This document shows positions 2,381 to 21,050 of a stretch of DNA of 32,729 nt, piece after piece; positions within the stretch are counted from its first letter, which is position 1, and every line of letters starts with the position of its first letter. This DNA comes from a virus: IMG/VR virus record IMGVR_UViG_3300042731_000579, positions 1 to 32,729 of that record. One strand, given 5' to 3'. The translations under genes and the position numbers were made by a program. The notes beneath the pieces are model-generated. The model was not told where the DNA came from and made no database searches. It saw only the letters and a list, made by a program, of their open reading frames with translations.

Positions 2381-3592
2381 ATGAAATCTTTTTTTACATT
2401 CTTAGGGGAAGCGCAGTCTAACGCATCTAAGCAGGCGAAGAAGCTTGGTCTTAAGGGCGACGGACATGGTTCCTGGGTAGATGGTCAGGGTAGAATTGTT
2501 GGTAGAACTGTAGAAGGTGAGTTTGTTTTCTCCAGTGGTAGGAAACCTGCTGCCGAGACCGATCCACAAAAACCTGGTGCTGCTGCTAGACAAATTGCAC
2601 CAGAACAAGGTCCACCTCCTGTTCCTGGTGCTGGTGGTCAAGAGGGTGCTCCAGAAGAGGAAGAAGAAGCAGTAGAAAAGACACGCGGAACTATTACTAT
2701 TGGTTTTGGTAGGTTCAATCCTCCTACATCTGGACACGAGAAACTGTTAGATAGAATTAAAGATACTGCTTCTGGTGATGAGTATGTAATTTATCCATCA
2801 CATACTACTGATCCTCAGAAGAATCCTTTGGATCCTGAGGCAAAGGTTCTCTTCATGAAGAAGATGTTCCCCGATCATAGTTCTGCAATTGTCTATGATC
2901 CATCCATTCGTACTATTATTGATGCTCTGAAAAATGCAGACTCCCAAGGATACGCCTCTGTCAATGTCGTGGTTGGTGCTGACAGAAAGAAAGAATTTGA
3001 GAGTCTCGCGAACAAATACAACGGGCAACTCTATAATTTTGATGCGGTTAATGTCATCAGTGCAGGGGAACGAGACCCTGATGCTGAAGGGGTCGAGGGT
3101 ATGTCTGCTTCCAAACTCAGAGCTTTAGCAGCAGATGGTGACTTTGAAGCATTTAGAAAAGGACTGCCAAAGGCAGCGAAAGGTGTAGTCGCTCGTGAAC
3201 TGTTTAATACAGTTCAAAAGTCCATGGGTAAGGCTGCTACTAAGAAAGAAGGTTTGGAACTCTGGCAGATTGCACCTAAGTTTGATTGGAAGACTCTTAG
3301 AGAACGCTACATTGGTGGATATGTCTTTAACATTGGTCAACTTGTAGAAAATATGAATACAGGTTTGATTGGTAGAGTCATGCGTAAGGGCACCAACTAT
3401 GTTATTGCCGTTACTCAAGAAGGTATTATGTTTAAGTCCTTCTTGCAGGACCTGAATGAGTTTGTTAAAAAACCTGTTAGTGGTGTTGTAGCATCTAAAA
3501 GAGAGGTCGGGACAGATTCTTATAGGGAGTATGTTCAGCAACTTACACCTGAGGAGAAGGTCAAGTCATTTATAAATAATAACAAGAAATAG
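2381..3592 (+). CDS. Cytidylyltransferase-like nucleotidyltransferase with extra N- and C-terminal modules
   Basis: The 403-residue protein has three parts. Residues 1-50 (SFFTFLGEA...KKLGLKGDGHGSWVDGQGRIVGRT) form a small module that I believe recurs at the N-termini of cyanophage virion-related proteins. Residues 51-100 are a Pro/Gly/Glu-rich linker. Residues 103-270 are a nucleotidyltransferase domain with the substrate motif GRFNPPTSGHEKL (110-122; SGHE is the HxGH-like motif), VVGADRKKE (197-205) and MSASKLR (241-247) in the place of the usual ISSTxxR. It would transfer a nucleotidyl group to an unknown acceptor, as in NMN or phosphopantetheine adenylyltransferases. A C-terminal module (about 310-385: YIGGYVFNIGQLVENMNTGLIGRVMRKGTNYVIAV...FKSFLQDL) follows. 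A late promoter precedes it, so it is probably made late. The real acceptor is not predictable. Confidence 0.78.
   Translation: MKSFFTFLGEAQSNASKQAKKLGLKGDGHGSWVDGQGRIVGRTVEGEFVFSSGRKPAAETDPQKPGAAARQIAPEQGPPPVPGAGGQEGAPEEEEEAVEKTRGTITIGFGRFNPPTSGHEKLLDRIKDTASGDEYVIYPSHTTDPQKNPLDPEAKVLFMKKMFPDHSSAIVYDPSIRTIIDALKNADSQGYASVNVVVGADRKKEFESLANKYNGQLYNFDAVNVISAGERDPDAEGVEGMSASKLRALAADGDFEAFRKGLPKAAKGVVARELFNTVQKSMGKAATKKEGLELWQIAPKFDWKTLRERYIGGYVFNIGQLVENMNTGLIGRVMRKGTNYVIAVTQEGIMFKSFLQDLNEFVKKPVSGVVASKREVGTDSYREYVQQLTPEEKVKSFINNNKK
3571..3578 (+). promoter_or_regulatory. Late promoter, TATAAATA
   Basis: A perfect late element overlaps the 3' end of the nucleotidyltransferase gene and lies 32 bases before the ATG at 3610. 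It would drive the charged protein with the frameshift signal as a late gene. Confidence 0.68.
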
Positions 3593-3609: not shown

Positions 3610-4587
3610 ATGTCAGATTTTATTGAAGCAAACTCGGATGAGATCATGCTGCGTAGCATGACCAATGTCTTCGTTGAGAAGAAGTTAGATCCTGTTGGAA
3701 AAGAGGACGCCGATATTGATAACGACGGCGATACTGATAAGAGCGATAAGTATCTGCACAATCGCCGTAAGGCAATTGGTGCTGCAATCGCTGCCGAGAA
3801 GGGCAAAAAGAAGGCAGTAAAGGAGGAGATGGAGGAGTATCTTCGTTCTAAGGTTGCTTCTATTAATGAAGGTGTAAAACTTCATAAGTCAGAGAAGGCA
3901 ACGACCTCTGATGAGAAGGCAGTAGAAATTGTTGAGAAGGAAGTTAAGAATAAGGTTACTGTTAACCCTGTCATGGGAGAGTCCGTCGCTTCCATGATCC
4001 AATCTATGTACGAGCGTAAGTACATGGGTGAAGGTCTGAAGCAGGCACGGAAGAATGTTGGTGCCTCTACTTGCTGGGATGGATACACGGCAAAGGGTAC
4101 TAAGAAAAAGAACGGTAAGGAAGTTCCTAACTGTGTAAAGGAAGAGGATGAGCAAATTAATGAAGCGACTCCTGGTGAAAAAACCTTTGATAAAGCAACC
4201 AGCCCTGAACTTCAGAAAAAAACTCATAAAATGGGTACAGCCGTTGGACAAGGAGTGAAGGATCATATTGGTGGTCTTGCTCAAGGTGCTTTTGGTAAAA
4301 AAACTAAGTCAAAAAATCCTGTAACTCAAGTTGGTAATGCAGTTACCAGAACTCTTAGTTCTCCCGCCAGAGCGGCTGCTGGTTATGCAACGGGACTTGT
4401 TAGAGGTCTTGCAAATTCTTACGAACCAGAAGGTAATCTGGTAGACGAAGAGTCTTGTGGTTCTGATAAGAAGATGAACATCAGAGGTTACAATTCTGAT
4501 GAGCAGAAGAAGCGTCTTGAGAAAAAGCGTGGCATGAAACTGGATGATCATCCCCAATATAAAAAGGATGATACCGAAAAAAAGTAG
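3610..4587 (+). CDS. Charged modular protein, 325 aa in the unshifted frame
   Basis: Several separable modules are visible. Residues 35-46 (DIDNDGDTDKSD) form an EF-hand or dockerin-like acidic loop that could bind calcium, followed by KYLHNRRKAI. Residues about 150-178 hold a two-Cys module (STCWDGYTAKGTKKKNGKEVPNC) that I recognise as recurrent in cyanophage proteins. Residues 267-280 (LANSYEPEGNLVDE) share SYEPEG with the modular protein at 12761. The rest is Lys/Glu-rich, probably helical or disordered. No enzyme motif is visible. A late promoter stands upstream, so a virion, scaffold or core role is plausible but inferred. The frame stops at TAG 4585-4587, directly after the slippery heptamer A AAA AAG and before a strong hairpin. 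The -1 frame is open for 130 more codons, so the full product is probably 455 aa. Confidence 0.82.
   Translation: MSDFIEANSDEIMLRSMTNVFVEKKLDPVGKEDADIDNDGDTDKSDKYLHNRRKAIGAAIAAEKGKKKAVKEEMEEYLRSKVASINEGVKLHKSEKATTSDEKAVEIVEKEVKNKVTVNPVMGESVASMIQSMYERKYMGEGLKQARKNVGASTCWDGYTAKGTKKKNGKEVPNCVKEEDEQINEATPGEKTFDKATSPELQKKTHKMGTAVGQGVKDHIGGLAQGAFGKKTKSKNPVTQVGNAVTRTLSSPARAAAGYATGLVRGLANSYEPEGNLVDEESCGSDKKMNIRGYNSDEQKKRLEKKRGMKLDDHPQYKKDDTEKK
4415..4433 (+). repeat. 19-base direct repeat, copy 1 (copy 2 at 13857-13875)
   Basis: The 19-base sequence attcttacgaaccagaagg occurs exactly here and at 13857-13875. Both copies are read in the same phase and encode SYEPEG in otherwise different proteins (the genes at 3610 and 12761). 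It marks a shared protein module, consistent with shuffling between two late-type genes. Confidence 0.7.
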
Positions 4588-4609
4588 AGTCCTCCTCACC
4601 AGAGGAGGG
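4578..4609 (+). promoter_or_regulatory. Programmed -1 ribosomal frameshift signal
   Basis: The zero-frame codons GAA AAA AAG TAG contain the classical bacterial slippery heptamer A AAA AAG (4578-4584), the one used by E. coli dnaX. Six bases later begins a 7-bp GC-rich stem, CCTCCTC (4591-4597) with GAGGAGG (4602-4608) around the loop ACCA, extendable by a T4590-G4609 wobble pair. The zero frame stops at once, while the -1 frame reads on in coding-quality sequence to 4976. The hairpin has no T-run after it, so it is not an intrinsic terminator. The competing explanation is a length error or true mutation in the run of seven A. Frameshifting itself has not been shown. Confidence 0.68.
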
Positions 4610-4976
4610 TAAAAATCTTTGGACTCGTCTTACTGAAGACAGAGCAGAAGATGCAAAAAAGTCTCTAGACAAAGTTAAGAAGCGTCAAAAGGTTCTTGAT
4701 AAGTATGAGAAAGAGACTGGTAGAAAACCAGACATCACTAAGTCTCCTGAGTATAAGCAACATAAGATGAGATTCCCTGGTGCCAAGCGCACTGGTAAGA
4801 AGAAGAAAGGTGAGAAGGAGACTGAACTGCAGCAGCATAACCGTAGGACTACTAGACATAATGAGAGACTTATGAAGCACGGTCCTACTAAAAAGGAGGC
4901 TGAGCGTCAGAAAGGTTACGATGCTTACGAGAAAAAGCACAAGTCAAAATACGGTAACAGATCTGTATGGGATTGA
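4584..4976 (+). CDS. C-terminal extension reached by -1 frameshift, 130 aa
   Basis: Read from GTA at 4584 after slippage, this frame encodes a soluble, very basic domain (VESSSPEEGKNLWTRLTEDR..., then KKSLDKVKKRQKVLDKYEKE, many KKEAER-type repeats, ending GNRSVWD). Its Lys/Glu/Arg-rich make-up matches the upstream protein. No start codon with a ribosome-binding site precedes it in frame; the first in-frame ATG is 4767, about 60 codons in. So it is not explained as a separate gene, except possibly as a short 69-aa product from 4767. It is best read as the second half of the protein beginning at 3610. The basic character would suit binding nucleic acid or an acidic partner, which is inference only. 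Confidence 0.7.
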   Translation, partial: VESSSPEEGKNLWTRLTEDRAEDAKKSLDKVKKRQKVLDKYEKETGRKPDITKSPEYKQHKMRFPGAKRTGKKKKGEKETELQQHNRRTTRHNERLMKHGPTKKEAERQKGYDAYEKKHKSKYGNRSVWD

Positions 4977-5007: not shown

Positions 5008-5211
5008 ATGCTTGCATTTTTACTCCCCTTAGCATCTAAGGTAATTTCTGATGCAGTCTCAAAGATTCCAGAAAATGAAGAACTCGGTGAGAAACTCATT
5101 GAGATCTGTCTTGTTATTCTTACTAAAGCAGTTAAGTTGACCAAGACTGATATGGATGATCAGCTCCTGGAGGTCGTTACTAAAGCGATCAAAAACCGCG
5201 AGGATGCTTGA
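5008..5211 (+). CDS. Small hypothetical protein, 67 aa
   Basis: A short protein with an amphipathic or weakly hydrophobic N-terminus (MLAFLLPLASKVISDAV) and a second hydrophobic helix (KLIEICLVILTKAVKL). The rest is acidic. The helices are too short and broken to call membrane segments with certainty. A holin-like role is a guess that I do not adopt. A late promoter variant precedes it, and a perfect one follows immediately after its stop, so it is probably expressed with the virion genes. No family was recognised. Confidence 0.65.
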   Translation: MLAFLLPLASKVISDAVSKIPENEELGEKLIEICLVILTKAVKLTKTDMDDQLLEVVTKAIKNREDA

Positions 5212-12760: not shown

Positions 12761-14260
12761 ATGCTGCCTTCTGATATTTCTAAAATGGCACAGACCTTCA
12801 GCGACATTGCTGAGGGTAAGCAAAAGGACGATTCGTATCTAGAGACAGATATGAAGAAGCGTCGTAAGAATAATGAAAAGGCTGTCGAAGACATGAAGAA
12901 AGTGAAGGACGATACTGTCCCTCGCTGGATGAGAGAGAAATTGGAACTTGTAATTAGCGAGTCCTTCTACTTCAAGAGACTCATGGTCTTGGATGAGGAT
13001 CTGGCAGAAGCATATCTTGTAATCGCAGCAGAATGTGTTCTCAGAGGATATGAAAGTCCCAGACTTATCGATAACATCGCTGAGGCAATCGATAAAGATA
13101 TTGTAGGTCACGATTTCCGTTCTGGATTATTTGCAGTCAATCCTAGACTTCATGAGAGTCGTGACGCAGCAGAGAAGCGTCAGGCAAGAGCTATCATTAA
13201 TGAGGTAACACCTGCTCCTAAAACGAACAAGGAGACCGATCTTGCTTATAGATCTGGTAGAGCACTTACCAACATGGGTCGCGACCTTGTACAAGGTGTG
13301 GGTCAAAGTTTTTCAAATATGTTTCGGGGCAAGCGTGACACTCCTGAGAACAATCCTGCTGCTTATAGACAGCAGCGAAGACTCAATAACATTGGTAACT
13401 TCCTGAGAACAGGTCAAGTTCCTACCAATAACAGTTCTACAACTCGTGCATCTACTCCTGCTGCACAGCAACAGATTGATAAGAACTCCAAAGAACGCGC
13501 TACTAATAAAGATTACTTTGGTACTGGTGCAGGTAATCCAACAGCACCACCTGCTAAACCAGCACCACCTGCTGCAGCACCAGCAGCACCTGCAGCACCT
13601 GCAGCACCAGCAGCACCTGCAAGACCAGCGGCACCTGCTTCACCAGCACCTACTGCTGTATCGAGACCTGCAGCACCTAAAAAACCTAGCATCGATAGTT
13701 TAGTTAATAAAGAGTATGATCGATTAAGAAATCAACCTGGTGGAACGAAAGCAGGTGGTGCTGCAGAGAAGTTCGGTAAGGCTGTTTCCGCTGCAAAGTT
13801 TGGTAAGAACTTTGCAAAACCAAAGACTCCAAATCCTTTGATGTCTAAGACTTTCGATTCTTACGAACCAGAAGGCGAGACCATTGAAGAGAAGAAGAAA
13901 GGTCTCTGGGATAACATTCATGCTAAGCGTAAGCGTGGTGAGAAACCTGCCAAACCTGGTGATAAGGACTATCCCAAGACTCTCGATGTTGAGTCGGTAA
14001 GTTTCTATGACTGTGTTGTTGGATATCTCATCGAGAATGAGATGATCCAGACTGAGGATCAGGCACTGGTCATCATGGAAGAACTGACTGGCGAAGAGAT
14101 CGCTTTCATTGTCGAAGCATATACCACTAAGCATGGTAAGAAGGCAATGGATTGGAATCGTAGTGACGACAAACCCAAGACTGTCGCCAAGAATCCTAAG
14201 ATGCCAAAGAAAAAGGAGGGCAAGTGCGATTGCTGCGGCAATGATCCCTGCACCTGCTAA
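12761..14260 (+). CDS. Large modular Ala/Pro-linker protein, late gene, 499 aa
   Basis: The modular protein has no enzyme motif. Residues 1-60 are charged (ETDMKKRRKNNEKAVEDMKK). Residues 55-145 form a helical domain (REKLELVISESFYFKRLMVLDEDLAEAYLVIAAECVLRGYESPRLIDNIAEAI). Residues 260-308 are an Ala/Pro linker. Residues 366-410 (SYEPEGETIEEKKKGLWDNIHAKRKRGEKPAKPGDKDYPKTL) and 413-453 (SVSFYDCVVGYLIENEMIQTEDQALVIMEELTGEEIAFIVEA) are modules that I recall from several cyanophage structural-type proteins. The tail is Cys-rich (CDCCGNDPCTC). ATG 12785 (MAQTFSDIAEG) is an alternative start. The late promoter upstream implies late expression. A virion or head-assembly role is likely but inferred. 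Confidence 0.82.
   Translation: MLPSDISKMAQTFSDIAEGKQKDDSYLETDMKKRRKNNEKAVEDMKKVKDDTVPRWMREKLELVISESFYFKRLMVLDEDLAEAYLVIAAECVLRGYESPRLIDNIAEAIDKDIVGHDFRSGLFAVNPRLHESRDAAEKRQARAIINEVTPAPKTNKETDLAYRSGRALTNMGRDLVQGVGQSFSNMFRGKRDTPENNPAAYRQQRRLNNIGNFLRTGQVPTNNSSTTRASTPAAQQQIDKNSKERATNKDYFGTGAGNPTAPPAKPAPPAAAPAAPAAPAAPAAPARPAAPASPAPTAVSRPAAPKKPSIDSLVNKEYDRLRNQPGGTKAGGAAEKFGKAVSAAKFGKNFAKPKTPNPLMSKTFDSYEPEGETIEEKKKGLWDNIHAKRKRGEKPAKPGDKDYPKTLDVESVSFYDCVVGYLIENEMIQTEDQALVIMEELTGEEIAFIVEAYTTKHGKKAMDWNRSDDKPKTVAKNPKMPKKKEGKCDCCGNDPCTC
13538..13684 (+). repeat. Ala/Pro-coding tandem repeat
   Basis: Within the 499-aa gene, residues about 260-308 consist of PAAPAAPAAPA-type triplets encoded by alternating GCA, CCA and CCT codons, giving short tandem DNA repeats (GCACCAGCA / GCACCTGCA). 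The region is a flexible linker between the helical and C-terminal modules. The repeats could change length by slippage or recombination. Confidence 0.75.
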
Positions 14261-15693: not shown

Positions 15694-15767
15694 GGTTCAG
15701 TAGCTCAGCTGGATAGAGCAACTGCCTTCTAAGCAGTCGGTCGTAGGTTCGAGTCCTACCTGAATCG
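15694..15767 (+). tRNA. tRNA-Arg(TCT)
   Basis: A 74-base cloverleaf. The acceptor arm GGTTCAG pairs with CTGAATC (one G-T). The D arm is GCTC/GAGC. The anticodon stem ACTGC/GCAGT holds the loop CTTCTAA with anticodon TCT. The T arm is GTAGG/CCTAC with TTCGAGT. The discriminator is G, and CCA is not encoded. It reads AGA codons, which are commoner in phage than in many marine cyanobacterial genomes. Confidence 0.97.
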
Positions 15768-15791
15768 CCTTTGGTCTATTATATTCTACCA

Positions 15792-16448: not shown

Positions 16449-16621
16449 TGAAAATCAATCTTTGGTATTGTAAGCGCATGGAACAATGGCGCTGGACACT
16501 CACAACTGAAGATGGTGTTGTCCCTGTTAGACAGGAGGCAGGTCAAAGATCTGACCTCCGTCAGGCAATGAACGATGTTGCAGTTACCGTAGAATACATG
16601 ATGAAAGAAACGCCAAACTAG
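16448..16621 (+). CDS. Small hypothetical protein, 57 aa, overlapping a tRNA gene
   Basis: The frame starts at ATG 16448, overlapping the talC stop by one base, and encodes MKINLWYCKRMEQWRW... through a short helical C-terminus (EYMMKETPN). It fills the space between talC and tRNA-Thr. Its TAG stop (16619-16621) lies inside the tRNA gene: the last ten bases are shared with the tRNA's acceptor arm and positions 8-10. Coding-type composition and coupling to talC support it. It has no known motif. Confidence 0.62.
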   Translation: MKINLWYCKRMEQWRWTLTTEDGVVPVRQEAGQRSDLRQAMNDVAVTVEYMMKETPN

Positions 16622-16685
16622 CTCAGCTGGATAGAGCAACTGTTTTGTAAACAGTAGGTCAACGGTTCAAGTCCGTTGTTTGGCT
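16612..16685 (+). tRNA. tRNA-Thr(TGT)
   Basis: A 74-base cloverleaf. The acceptor arm GCCAAAC pairs with GTTTGGC. The D arm is GCTC/GAGC. The anticodon stem ACTGT/ACAGT holds the loop TTTGTAA with anticodon TGT. The T arm is AACGG/CCGTT. The discriminator is T and there is no encoded CCA. It reads ACA. The 5' ten bases also carry the end of the upstream small gene. Confidence 0.97.
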
Positions 16686-18522: not shown

Positions 18523-19129
18523 TCCTGTTCAGTATGCATATGATAAAGATGGATATGCAATCATCGATAACTTTTTCTTCGATGATGTATGTGATGAGTT
18601 ACACAGCCTTGCTGTAAATCATGAAGACATTGATGATGTGTATGCTGATGATGGGTATCACTCAATAAACTTTGACAAAGATAATTTGCCATTTCCCATT
18701 TTATCTGATATAATTACTGCTATACACAATGAGTTCAGCATCCTAAAGAACCTGAAGTTTGAAAGGGGTTGGGCATTTGTGTATAATAATACTGCTAAAG
18801 GTGTGACACCTCATGCAGATCCTGCAAGTATCAATGTAAACTTGTGGGTTACCCCATATGAATGTGTAAAAGATCGTACTAAAAACGGTCTTATAATCTA
18901 CGATAAAAAATCCCCTGAGGACTGGACCTGGGACGAGTATAATAGTGATGTTGAGCGCGTCACTAACTACTTGAAAGAATCCAATGCCAAACCCAGGCAC
19001 ATTCCCTACCAGTATAATAGACTCTTAATTTTTGATTCTAAATACTTTCATCGAACTTGTGGGGTTTCGATGTGGGGAGGCAAACGCCACCGTAGAGTTA
19101 ACTACACATTCATGTTCACGGGAGATTAG
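18515..19129 (+). CDS. Putative 2OG-Fe(II) dioxygenase, GTG start, ending inside tRNA-Val
   Basis: The 204-residue protein (VDPVQYAYDKDGYAIIDNFFFDDV...) has His100-Ala-Asp102 (VTPHADPASINVNLWVTP) as HxD motif. NRLLIFDSKYFHRT gives His179, and HRRVNYTFMF gives Arg194. The long-chain layout resembles phytanoyl-CoA-dioxygenase-type or halogenase-type sequences, but the Asp of HxD is retained, so hydroxylation rather than halogenation is expected. GTG 18515 is the best start; no ATG is near. The TAG stop (19127-19129) is formed by bases 8-10 of tRNA-Val. Confidence 0.78.
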   Translation: MVDPVQYAYDKDGYAIIDNFFFDDVCDELHSLAVNHEDIDDVYADDGYHSINFDKDNLPFPILSDIITAIHNEFSILKNLKFERGWAFVYNNTAKGVTPHADPASINVNLWVTPYECVKDRTKNGLIIYDKKSPEDWTWDEYNSDVERVTNYLKESNAKPRHIPYQYNRLLIFDSKYFHRTCGVSMWGGKRHRRVNYTFMFTGD

Positions 19130-19191
19130 CTCAGCGGTAGAGCACTTCGTTTACACCGAATAGGTCATTGGTTCGATCCCGATATCTCCCA
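19120..19191 (+). tRNA. tRNA-Val(TAC)
   Basis: A 72-base cloverleaf. The acceptor arm GGGAGAT pairs with ATCTCCC. The D arm is GCTC/GAGC with a short loop. The anticodon stem CTTCG/CGAAT (last pair imperfect) holds the loop TTTACAC with anticodon TAC. The T arm is ATTGG/CCGAT (one G-T pair). The discriminator is A. It reads GTA. Its first ten bases also encode the end of the upstream dioxygenase gene. Confidence 0.96.
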
Positions 19192-20726: not shown

Positions 20727-20974
20727 TGAAAACCACCATTCTTCTGGAGCGTTTTCCATATCGTTATATCCAGTGTGGCAAACTAGAAATCAATGGTATG
20801 CCAGACTGCCGTATTCAAAAGGTAGACTCCTATACTGGACGCTACCGTGACATGTATCTTTGTGATAATGAAATGCAGTTGATGACTGCTATGGAAGATC
20901 ACGATTATACTTGCTGGTTGGACCCTGATGGTGTTCCTGCCTATCGTAAAGACTCGGTATCGTCTCAAAACTAG
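20726..20974 (+). CDS. Small hypothetical protein, 82 aa
   Basis: ATG 20726 overlaps the preceding TGA by one base; a GTG one codon earlier is possible. It contains FPYRYIQCGKLEINGMPDCRIQKVDSYTGRYRDMYLCDNEMQLMTAMEDHDYTCWLDPDG, a compact mixed fold with four Cys but no clear zinc site. It was probably transcribed from the early promoter at 20465. The function is unknown. Confidence 0.68.
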   Translation: MKTTILLERFPYRYIQCGKLEINGMPDCRIQKVDSYTGRYRDMYLCDNEMQLMTAMEDHDYTCWLDPDGVPAYRKDSVSSQN

Positions 20975-20978
20975 CCCT

Positions 20979-21050
20979 GGTCGGGATGGTCCTTCGACCT
21001 CCGCTGGTTTCTTGCTTCCAGTAAAAGAGCAAGTGGCGAGCCTGCAAACC
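20979..21050 (+). ncRNA. Structured leader RNA with pseudoknot, possible wcaG RNA
   Basis: The 90-base gap before the gene at 21065 is rich in pairing. Hairpin 1 is GGTCG/CGACC (20979-20983, 20995-20999) with an inner GGA/TCC pair. CCGC/GTGG (21001-21004, 21033-21036) encloses TTGCT/AGCAA (21012-21016, 21028-21032). GGTTT (21006-21010), in the internal loop, can pair with AAACC (21046-21050) downstream, making a pseudoknot. The wcaG RNA motif is a conserved cyanophage leader RNA found upstream of exopolysaccharide and light-response genes. Position just ahead of a small gene, gmd and fcl (wcaG) makes that identity attractive, but it is from memory and not tested. Confidence 0.5.

Follow-up and report, generated by a model that had tools for sequence, protein, structure and literature searches.

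A candidate dnaX-type -1 frameshift signal where modules of a patchwork cyanophage protein meet

Results

A 325-codon frame closes on a slippery heptamer

When a reading frame ends directly on a slippery heptamer, and the -1 frame beyond it is open with no start of its own nearby, are the two parts made as one protein? This question is raised by a gene of a single IMG/VR virus contig (record IMGVR_UViG_3300042731_000579, positions 1 to 32,729). The whole 32,729-nucleotide stretch was analysed and is called the window below. Judged from its gene content and order, the contig belongs to a T4-like cyanophage of the family Kyanoviridae: a cytidylyltransferase gene, the gene under study, a gp187-like gene and NrdA/NrdB (ribonucleotide reductase) follow one another as in these phages. 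The features of the locus are as follows.

2381..3592, + strand: upstream neighbour, cytidylyltransferase/NMNAT-like, T4-GC 190 family
3610..4587, + strand: zero-frame ORF of 325 aa; an N-terminal module common to L020-L023, then shuffled linear modules
4564..4568, + strand: SD-like AAGGA, candidate 5' stimulator, 9 nt 5' of the heptamer
4569..4571, + strand: TGA of the -1 frame, which opens at 4572
4578..4584, + strand: slippery heptamer A AAA AAG, zero frame; kept in L008, L009 and L021
4584..4976, + strand: -1 frame extension of 130 aa; residues from about 4635 form the conserved gp186-family C-terminal domain
4585..4587, + strand: zero-frame stop TAG, immediately 3' of the heptamer
4590..4609, + strand: hairpin, candidate 3' stimulator; 7 bp and an outer U-G pair (4590/4609), loop ACCA, about -13 kcal/mol
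5008..5211, + strand: downstream neighbour, gp187-like, 67 aa, marking where the variable gene ends

The original prediction was of a programmed -1 frameshift at this place, and the elements that it named are present. The zero frame ends in GAA AAA AAG TAG at 4576-4587, closing the 325-aa ORF 3610-4587. The dnaX-type heptamer A AAA AAG lies in the zero frame at 4578-4584, and the GC-rich hairpin of 7 bp, said to begin six bases on, corresponds to CCTCCTC/ACCA/GAGGAGG at 4591-4608, after a 6-nt spacer (4585-4590). The -1 frame, described as open and without a nearby start, runs to a stop at 4974-4976 and has the ATG at 4767 as its first ATG, GTG or TTG. Conceptual translation returns the expected sizes, 325 aa on termination and 455 aa on shifting. 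In the predicted fused product, the joint spans DDTEKKVESSSPEEGK. Because the -1 frame has a TGA at 4569-4571, the shift is confined to 16 nt, 4572-4587, heptamer included.

The SD-like AAGGA had not been mentioned previously, and its function as a stimulator is inferred. The E. coli dnaX site (tau/gamma) carries a stem-loop a few nucleotides 3' of its heptamer and, about 10 nt upstream, an SD-like element. The window shares A_AAA_AAG and the stem-loop with this system, its 6-nt spacer falling within the 5-8 nt expected of the dnaX type; AAGGA lies at a comparable upstream distance, in a K/E-rich sequence where 5-mers of this kind are common. In E. coli, A_AAA_AAG is far more shift-prone than related heptamers (PMC5009743).

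The elements are more than chance would give. The main ORFs of the window, 9916 codons in all, hold only 3 zero-frame A AAA AAG. Downstream of the heptamer, the first 30 nt fold with -13.1 kcal/mol, a value reached by only 0.24% of the window's 30-mers, and this fold is the strongest after any of the 39 ORF stops tested. The z-score of the fold is -4.5 for a 121-nt region, but only -1.3 for the bare 41-nt piece. About 270 fetched loci were then scanned for a -1 overlap with a zero-frame slippery heptamer and no ATG for 15 codons. These loci had been chosen around the window gene, many of them overlap, and each carries several other genes. The scan returned the window gene only, besides two matches that were set aside: L101 owed its retrieval to the heptamer pattern, and in L268 the overlap is trivial, the next ORF having its own GTG start.

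We conclude, with a probability of about 0.85, that the window holds a cassette for programmed -1 ribosomal frameshifting of the dnaX type, placed where modules of a patchwork cyanophage protein join. We draw this reading from the elements themselves, from meeting them again in a diverged relative, from continuous-ORF counterparts, and from selection on the C-terminal part and recurring joints in sister lineages. Slippage in the cell and use of both forms in a set ratio are inferred, as is the efficiency; there are no reporter, read or peptide data.

The gene is a patchwork with recurring -1 joints

Behind its N-terminal module, the ORF 3610-4587 contains the linear modules DPVGKEDADIDNDGD.., GLKQARKNVGAS..PNCVKEE and LEKKRGMKLDDHPQYKK. 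We compared 78 loci fetched with the cytidylyltransferase as anchor, looking at the gene between this anchor and gp187. Many of the 78 have one ORF there. The following -1 splits were also seen.

A AAA AAG TAG plus hairpin: window, L185
A9 CTT/CTC TAA: L194, L199, L202, L251, L220
A10 CTC/CTT TAA: L198, L200
A12 TAA: L192, L208
A10 TCCGTAA: L193 (weaker, with an ATG 45 nt beyond the stop)

Every start-less split seen is -1; none is +1. Putative slippery -1 joints are a recurring feature of module boundaries in this shuffling gene, the window being one case. Module KKTLTIEE.DKLYL stands 3' of the A9/A10 joints. The same module is in frame in L191/L276 and L201/L283, with A9 unchanged; in-frame and out-of-frame cases are set apart by the phase of the module upstream rather than by the length of the run. 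For L194, L199, L202 and L251, all of them split, omega is 0.13-0.42 for the start-less downstream part (dS 0.2-0.7) and 0.14-0.19 for the upstream part. Since the start-less part remains under purifying selection, translation through the A9 joint is favoured, and such translation would best explain the selection.

A split at A11 in L190 was left out because the next ORF starts from its own ATG. In that locus (3259-3278), A11 stands just 5' of the zero-frame TGA, with the ATG at the edge of the run, possibly an alternative outcome of such a joint.

The sister joints bring in another mechanism, in which RNA polymerase adds an A and some mRNAs encode the 455 aa in one frame. They have A9, A10 or A12 with no hairpin, and runs of such length are known to make bacterial RNA polymerase slip (PMC5009743). 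Long runs are also concentrated in this gene. Among 635 kb of loci, which include several near-duplicates, there are 20 A/T runs of at least 9, and at least 15 (18 by position) lie inside homologues of the window gene. Runs of at least 9 A or T occur in L192-L202, L208 and L220; the window has A7 only. It is here that transcriptional slippage fits poorly: A7 followed by G is under the usual threshold, and the stem-loop and SD spacing are typical of ribosomal sites and unneeded at a plain run. We regard it as unlikely for the window.

The cassette is conserved in a diverged relative

Near-identical contigs (99.97-99.99% identity to the window) come from samples 3300035135 and 3300035145, one from each; both repeat the run of seven A's and differ from the window at 1-2 SNPs outside it. 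A more informative relative is contig 3300021960_000157 (loci L021, L185 and L104). Its flanks are about 78% identical to the window, and dS is about 1.4 for the N-terminal part. L021/L185 keeps GAAAAAAAGTAG; otherwise there is no BLAST alignment of L021 with window 4148-4971. The L021 joint reads GAGGAAGAAACTGAAAAAAAGTAGAAACCTCCTCTATTGAAGAGGGGGTT and agrees with the window in the heptamer, the stop, the 5' arm of the stem and the place of the SD-like element. L185 has GAGGA there, as far from the stop as AAGGA is in the window; such 5-mers are common in this K/E-rich sequence. The frames overlap in L021 by 10 nt only, starting at the heptamer. The modules on either side of the joint are unlike those of the window. 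Because L021 keeps the cassette amid different modules, the joint has persisted while its surroundings were shuffled.

The L185 hairpin, CCTCCTC...GAGGG, has a predicted energy of -14.9 kcal/mol. Compared with the window, L021 has all four loop bases and both bases preceding the stem changed. One pair is broken in the window register, and a 10-bp stem forms in a shifted register. No clean compensatory base change is found in the hairpin between the two lineages carrying it. The version with A AAA AAG and hairpin is known from these two diverged lineages only, the window clade and L021.

According to the original prediction, a heptamer and hairpin conserved among homologues with fused or split forms would support the frameshift, and relatives differing by one A and encoding a single frame without a slippery site would refute it. 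The first expectation is borne out: both elements are conserved in L021/L185, and L022/L210, L023/L197 and L195 have a single continuous ORF (329-453 aa), in which an N-terminal part of the same type is joined to a C-terminal part of a related type. No relative of strictly the refuting kind was found; those with a continuous ORF do not qualify, because they differ by whole modules and not by one A.

These comparisons also bear on the possibility that a recent A8 to A7 deletion, or an assembly error, split a continuous ORF and left the C-terminal part dying or unexpressed. Adding one A would indeed fuse both frames, and the -1 codons KKVESSSPEEG resemble the in-frame continuation ..KKEEVEE of relatives. 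However, A7 agrees in three assemblies from different samples, which makes an assembly error unlikely, and L021 shares the site and the hairpin, so the site predates that divergence. Sister lineages are, moreover, repeatedly split, in -1 only and with the downstream part under selection. We consider a broken or misassembled gene very improbable.

The -1 frame encodes the C-terminal domain of gp186

The -1 part had been described as a basic domain. It is K/R-rich and matches phrog_1784, the syn9 gp186 family, over the C-terminal domain (E 5.5e-22). The domain is thus already known, as a conserved hypothetical one. DNA identity with S-BM1 across the region is 78.5%. The isolates S-BM1, syn9 and S-RIM2 have distinct gp185 and gp186 genes, both with a start of their own, and the gp186 domain sits in the corresponding genomic place in the window and in these isolates. 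The syn9 gp185/gp186 clusters share with the window gene the location between cytidylyltransferase and gp187, the phrog_1784 domain and modules; unlike in the window, the isolate parts are separately started and have no slippery site. The N-terminal region of gp186 and its start are absent from the window.

For the window C-terminal part, omega is 0.10-0.18 against relatives, indicating purifying selection; the compared lineages carry this part as a separate gene. Selection after the split cannot be read, because the modules of the nearest split relative differ in this part. A structure model of the part is all helical and of low confidence (pLDDT 72, pTM 0.30). A Pfam match to AcrIC5 was rejected (18.4 bits, under the cutoff). 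No Ig-like domain is indicated in the -1 part, either by a Pfam match or by the low-confidence model. The window gene has no PHROG match to tail chaperones; its neighbours are the cytidylyltransferase and gp187, and no tape measure gene adjoins it.

Could the window nonetheless hold two ordinary genes, the second started by reinitiation or internal initiation? The separate gp185 and gp186 of isolates are a precedent, and GAGGAGG closely 3' of the stop could bind a ribosome. After GAGGAGG, however, the frame reads GGT AAA AAT CTT, with no usual start, and initiation at 4767, the first start, would remove about one third of the conserved domain from its N-terminal side. The missing gp186 N-terminus also speaks against separate genes. 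The chance that this explanation is right seems to us slight.

Phase variation, with replication slippage altering the A run and toggling the long form in the population, is conceivable for the mutable A9-A12 runs of sister lineages, A9 being in frame in L191 and L201 yet out of frame in L194, but these cases are set by the upstream module and not by run length, start-less splits are always -1 and never +1, and the window's A7 is short and agrees in three assemblies, so that we give it next to no credence.

The searches beyond the relatives returned no isolate carrying the cassette: its DNA is absent from 50,697 phage records, and all carriers are metagenome contigs. In about 20 regions of isolate and single-virus relatives, the gene has own starts or one frame, and no start-less slippery split. 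Apart from L021 and the window-like contigs, wider scans for A AAA AAG cassettes gave only unrelated matches, and Rfam holds no family that includes the cassette. Among the scan matches, L299 has a 128-aa ORF ending in GAA AAA AAG TAA with a 99-codon -1 extension, and matches tail assembly chaperones (phrog_344). The pattern can therefore find genuine sites, since it recovered a classical phage frameshift gene. Another locus, L298 (5119-5795), has a 125-aa ORF ending in GAA AAA AAG TAA and a 93-codon -1 extension without PHROG match; it is possibly an undescribed tail-chaperone-like frameshift pair.

Discussion

In the proposed ribosomal mechanism, a ribosome would meet A AAA AAG with the hairpin 6 nt ahead slowing translation, and the SD-like AAGGA behind it would probably slow it too. 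Without a slip, translation would stop at TAG and give a 325-aa short form lacking the C-terminal domain. A slip back by one base would give the 455-aa form with the gp186 C-terminal domain. As to origin, recombination likely moves modules in and out of frame, and A-rich lysine joints would be selected where the phase mismatches. The longer A9-A12 joints perhaps work by transcriptional slippage, or by ribosomal slippage lacking stimulators.

The arrangement has several known counterparts. In a rarer, Chlorobium-type dnaX arrangement, the stop directly follows the site and the shift gives the longer product (PMC5009743), as proposed for the window. Unlike dnaX, the window gene is phage-encoded and unrelated, and its signal stands at the joint of shuffling modules. 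In Thermus thermophilus, dnaX uses transcriptional slippage at a run of nine (PMC5009743). The A9 or longer runs of sister lineages resemble that site, slippage in the phages not being shown; the window differs by A7G and a hairpin. Lambda G/GT is similar in that a phage ORF gains a C-terminal domain by a -1 shift close to its end, but the window gene has no sequence relation to it and does not lie beside a tape measure gene. T4 lacks a conserved tail-gene frameshift (PMC5009743). The csoS2 gene of bacteria with carboxysomes encodes a large assembly protein that is made in a short and a long form through a -1 frameshift, the short form being the product of the shift (PMC5009743). By analogy, the window gene may also give two forms, with the shift making the long one instead.

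The closest parallel may be the mobile Ig-like domains of phages, which are in frame in some phages and attached by a -1 or +1 frameshift in others, probably because recombination lands in either phase (PMC5009743). In both cases a recombining domain is attached in frame or by frameshift, and the window gene looks like a denser case. It differs in having no Ig domain but many short basic modules, -1 shifts only, A-rich lysine codons and several joints. No recoding site in T4-like cyanophages was found described in the open-access literature searched, and the recurrent -1 joints of this gene seem to be undescribed until now.

One may go further and suppose that slippery A-rich lysine joints serve this uncultured T4-like cyanophage lineage as connectors that tolerate any frame. 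Modules of a virion protein could then recombine in any phase, -1 slippage, ribosomal at A AAA AAG with its hairpin and of either kind at A9-A12, would keep the C-terminal part expressed and both forms would be made, the joints being an evolved aid to shuffling rather than accidents. We offer this only tentatively, and incline somewhat against it. In any case, the locus provides natural replicates of one frame, a dnaX-like split and a plain A9-A12 split. These allow a direct test of how domain shuffling, frameshifting and transcriptional slippage replace each other in evolution, a substitution previously proposed for phage Ig-like domains and dnaX. Gene callers probably halve these proteins in marine virus data, so long forms would be absent from virion-proteomics databases.

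The product of the window gene is probably virion-associated; its location and function are inferred, without peptide data. S-SCSM1 ORF92, at the corresponding genomic place, shares a module with the window gene and is annotated as a virion protein; virion proteins of this phage were identified by mass spectrometry (PMC9602691). The family of the upstream neighbour is also present in virions of S-SM1 (PMC3037559) and S-SCSM1 (PMC9602691). Short and long forms would be natural for an assembly protein, which remains a guess.

Short linear modules recur in varying order across a large number of cyanophage proteins and resemble a combinatorial toolkit, its function unknown. They are found in the window at 3610-4587 and 12761-14260, in L005, L013, L047, L054 and L061, and in many other places. 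Three recurring ones are DPVGKEDADIDNDGDxDKSDKYLHxRRKAIG, with an EF-hand-like DxDxDG, GxxKQARKNVGASTCWDGYxAKGTKxKxGKxVPNCVKEE and ERKARLEKKRGMKxDDHPQYKKEE. A 100-nt stretch of L021 (4306-4405) has 89% DNA identity with window 13894-13993, which belongs to a different modular gene (499-aa ORF). This similarity is evidence that modules have been exchanged between the two loci.

The window also carries three tRNA genes, Arg-TCT (15694-15769), Thr-TGT (16612-16685) and Val-TAC (19120-19191); tRNA-Lys is not among them. A wcaG cis-regulatory RNA (RF01761, 61 bits) is located at 20948-21047, with a nucleotide-sugar epimerase ORF a few hundred bases downstream.
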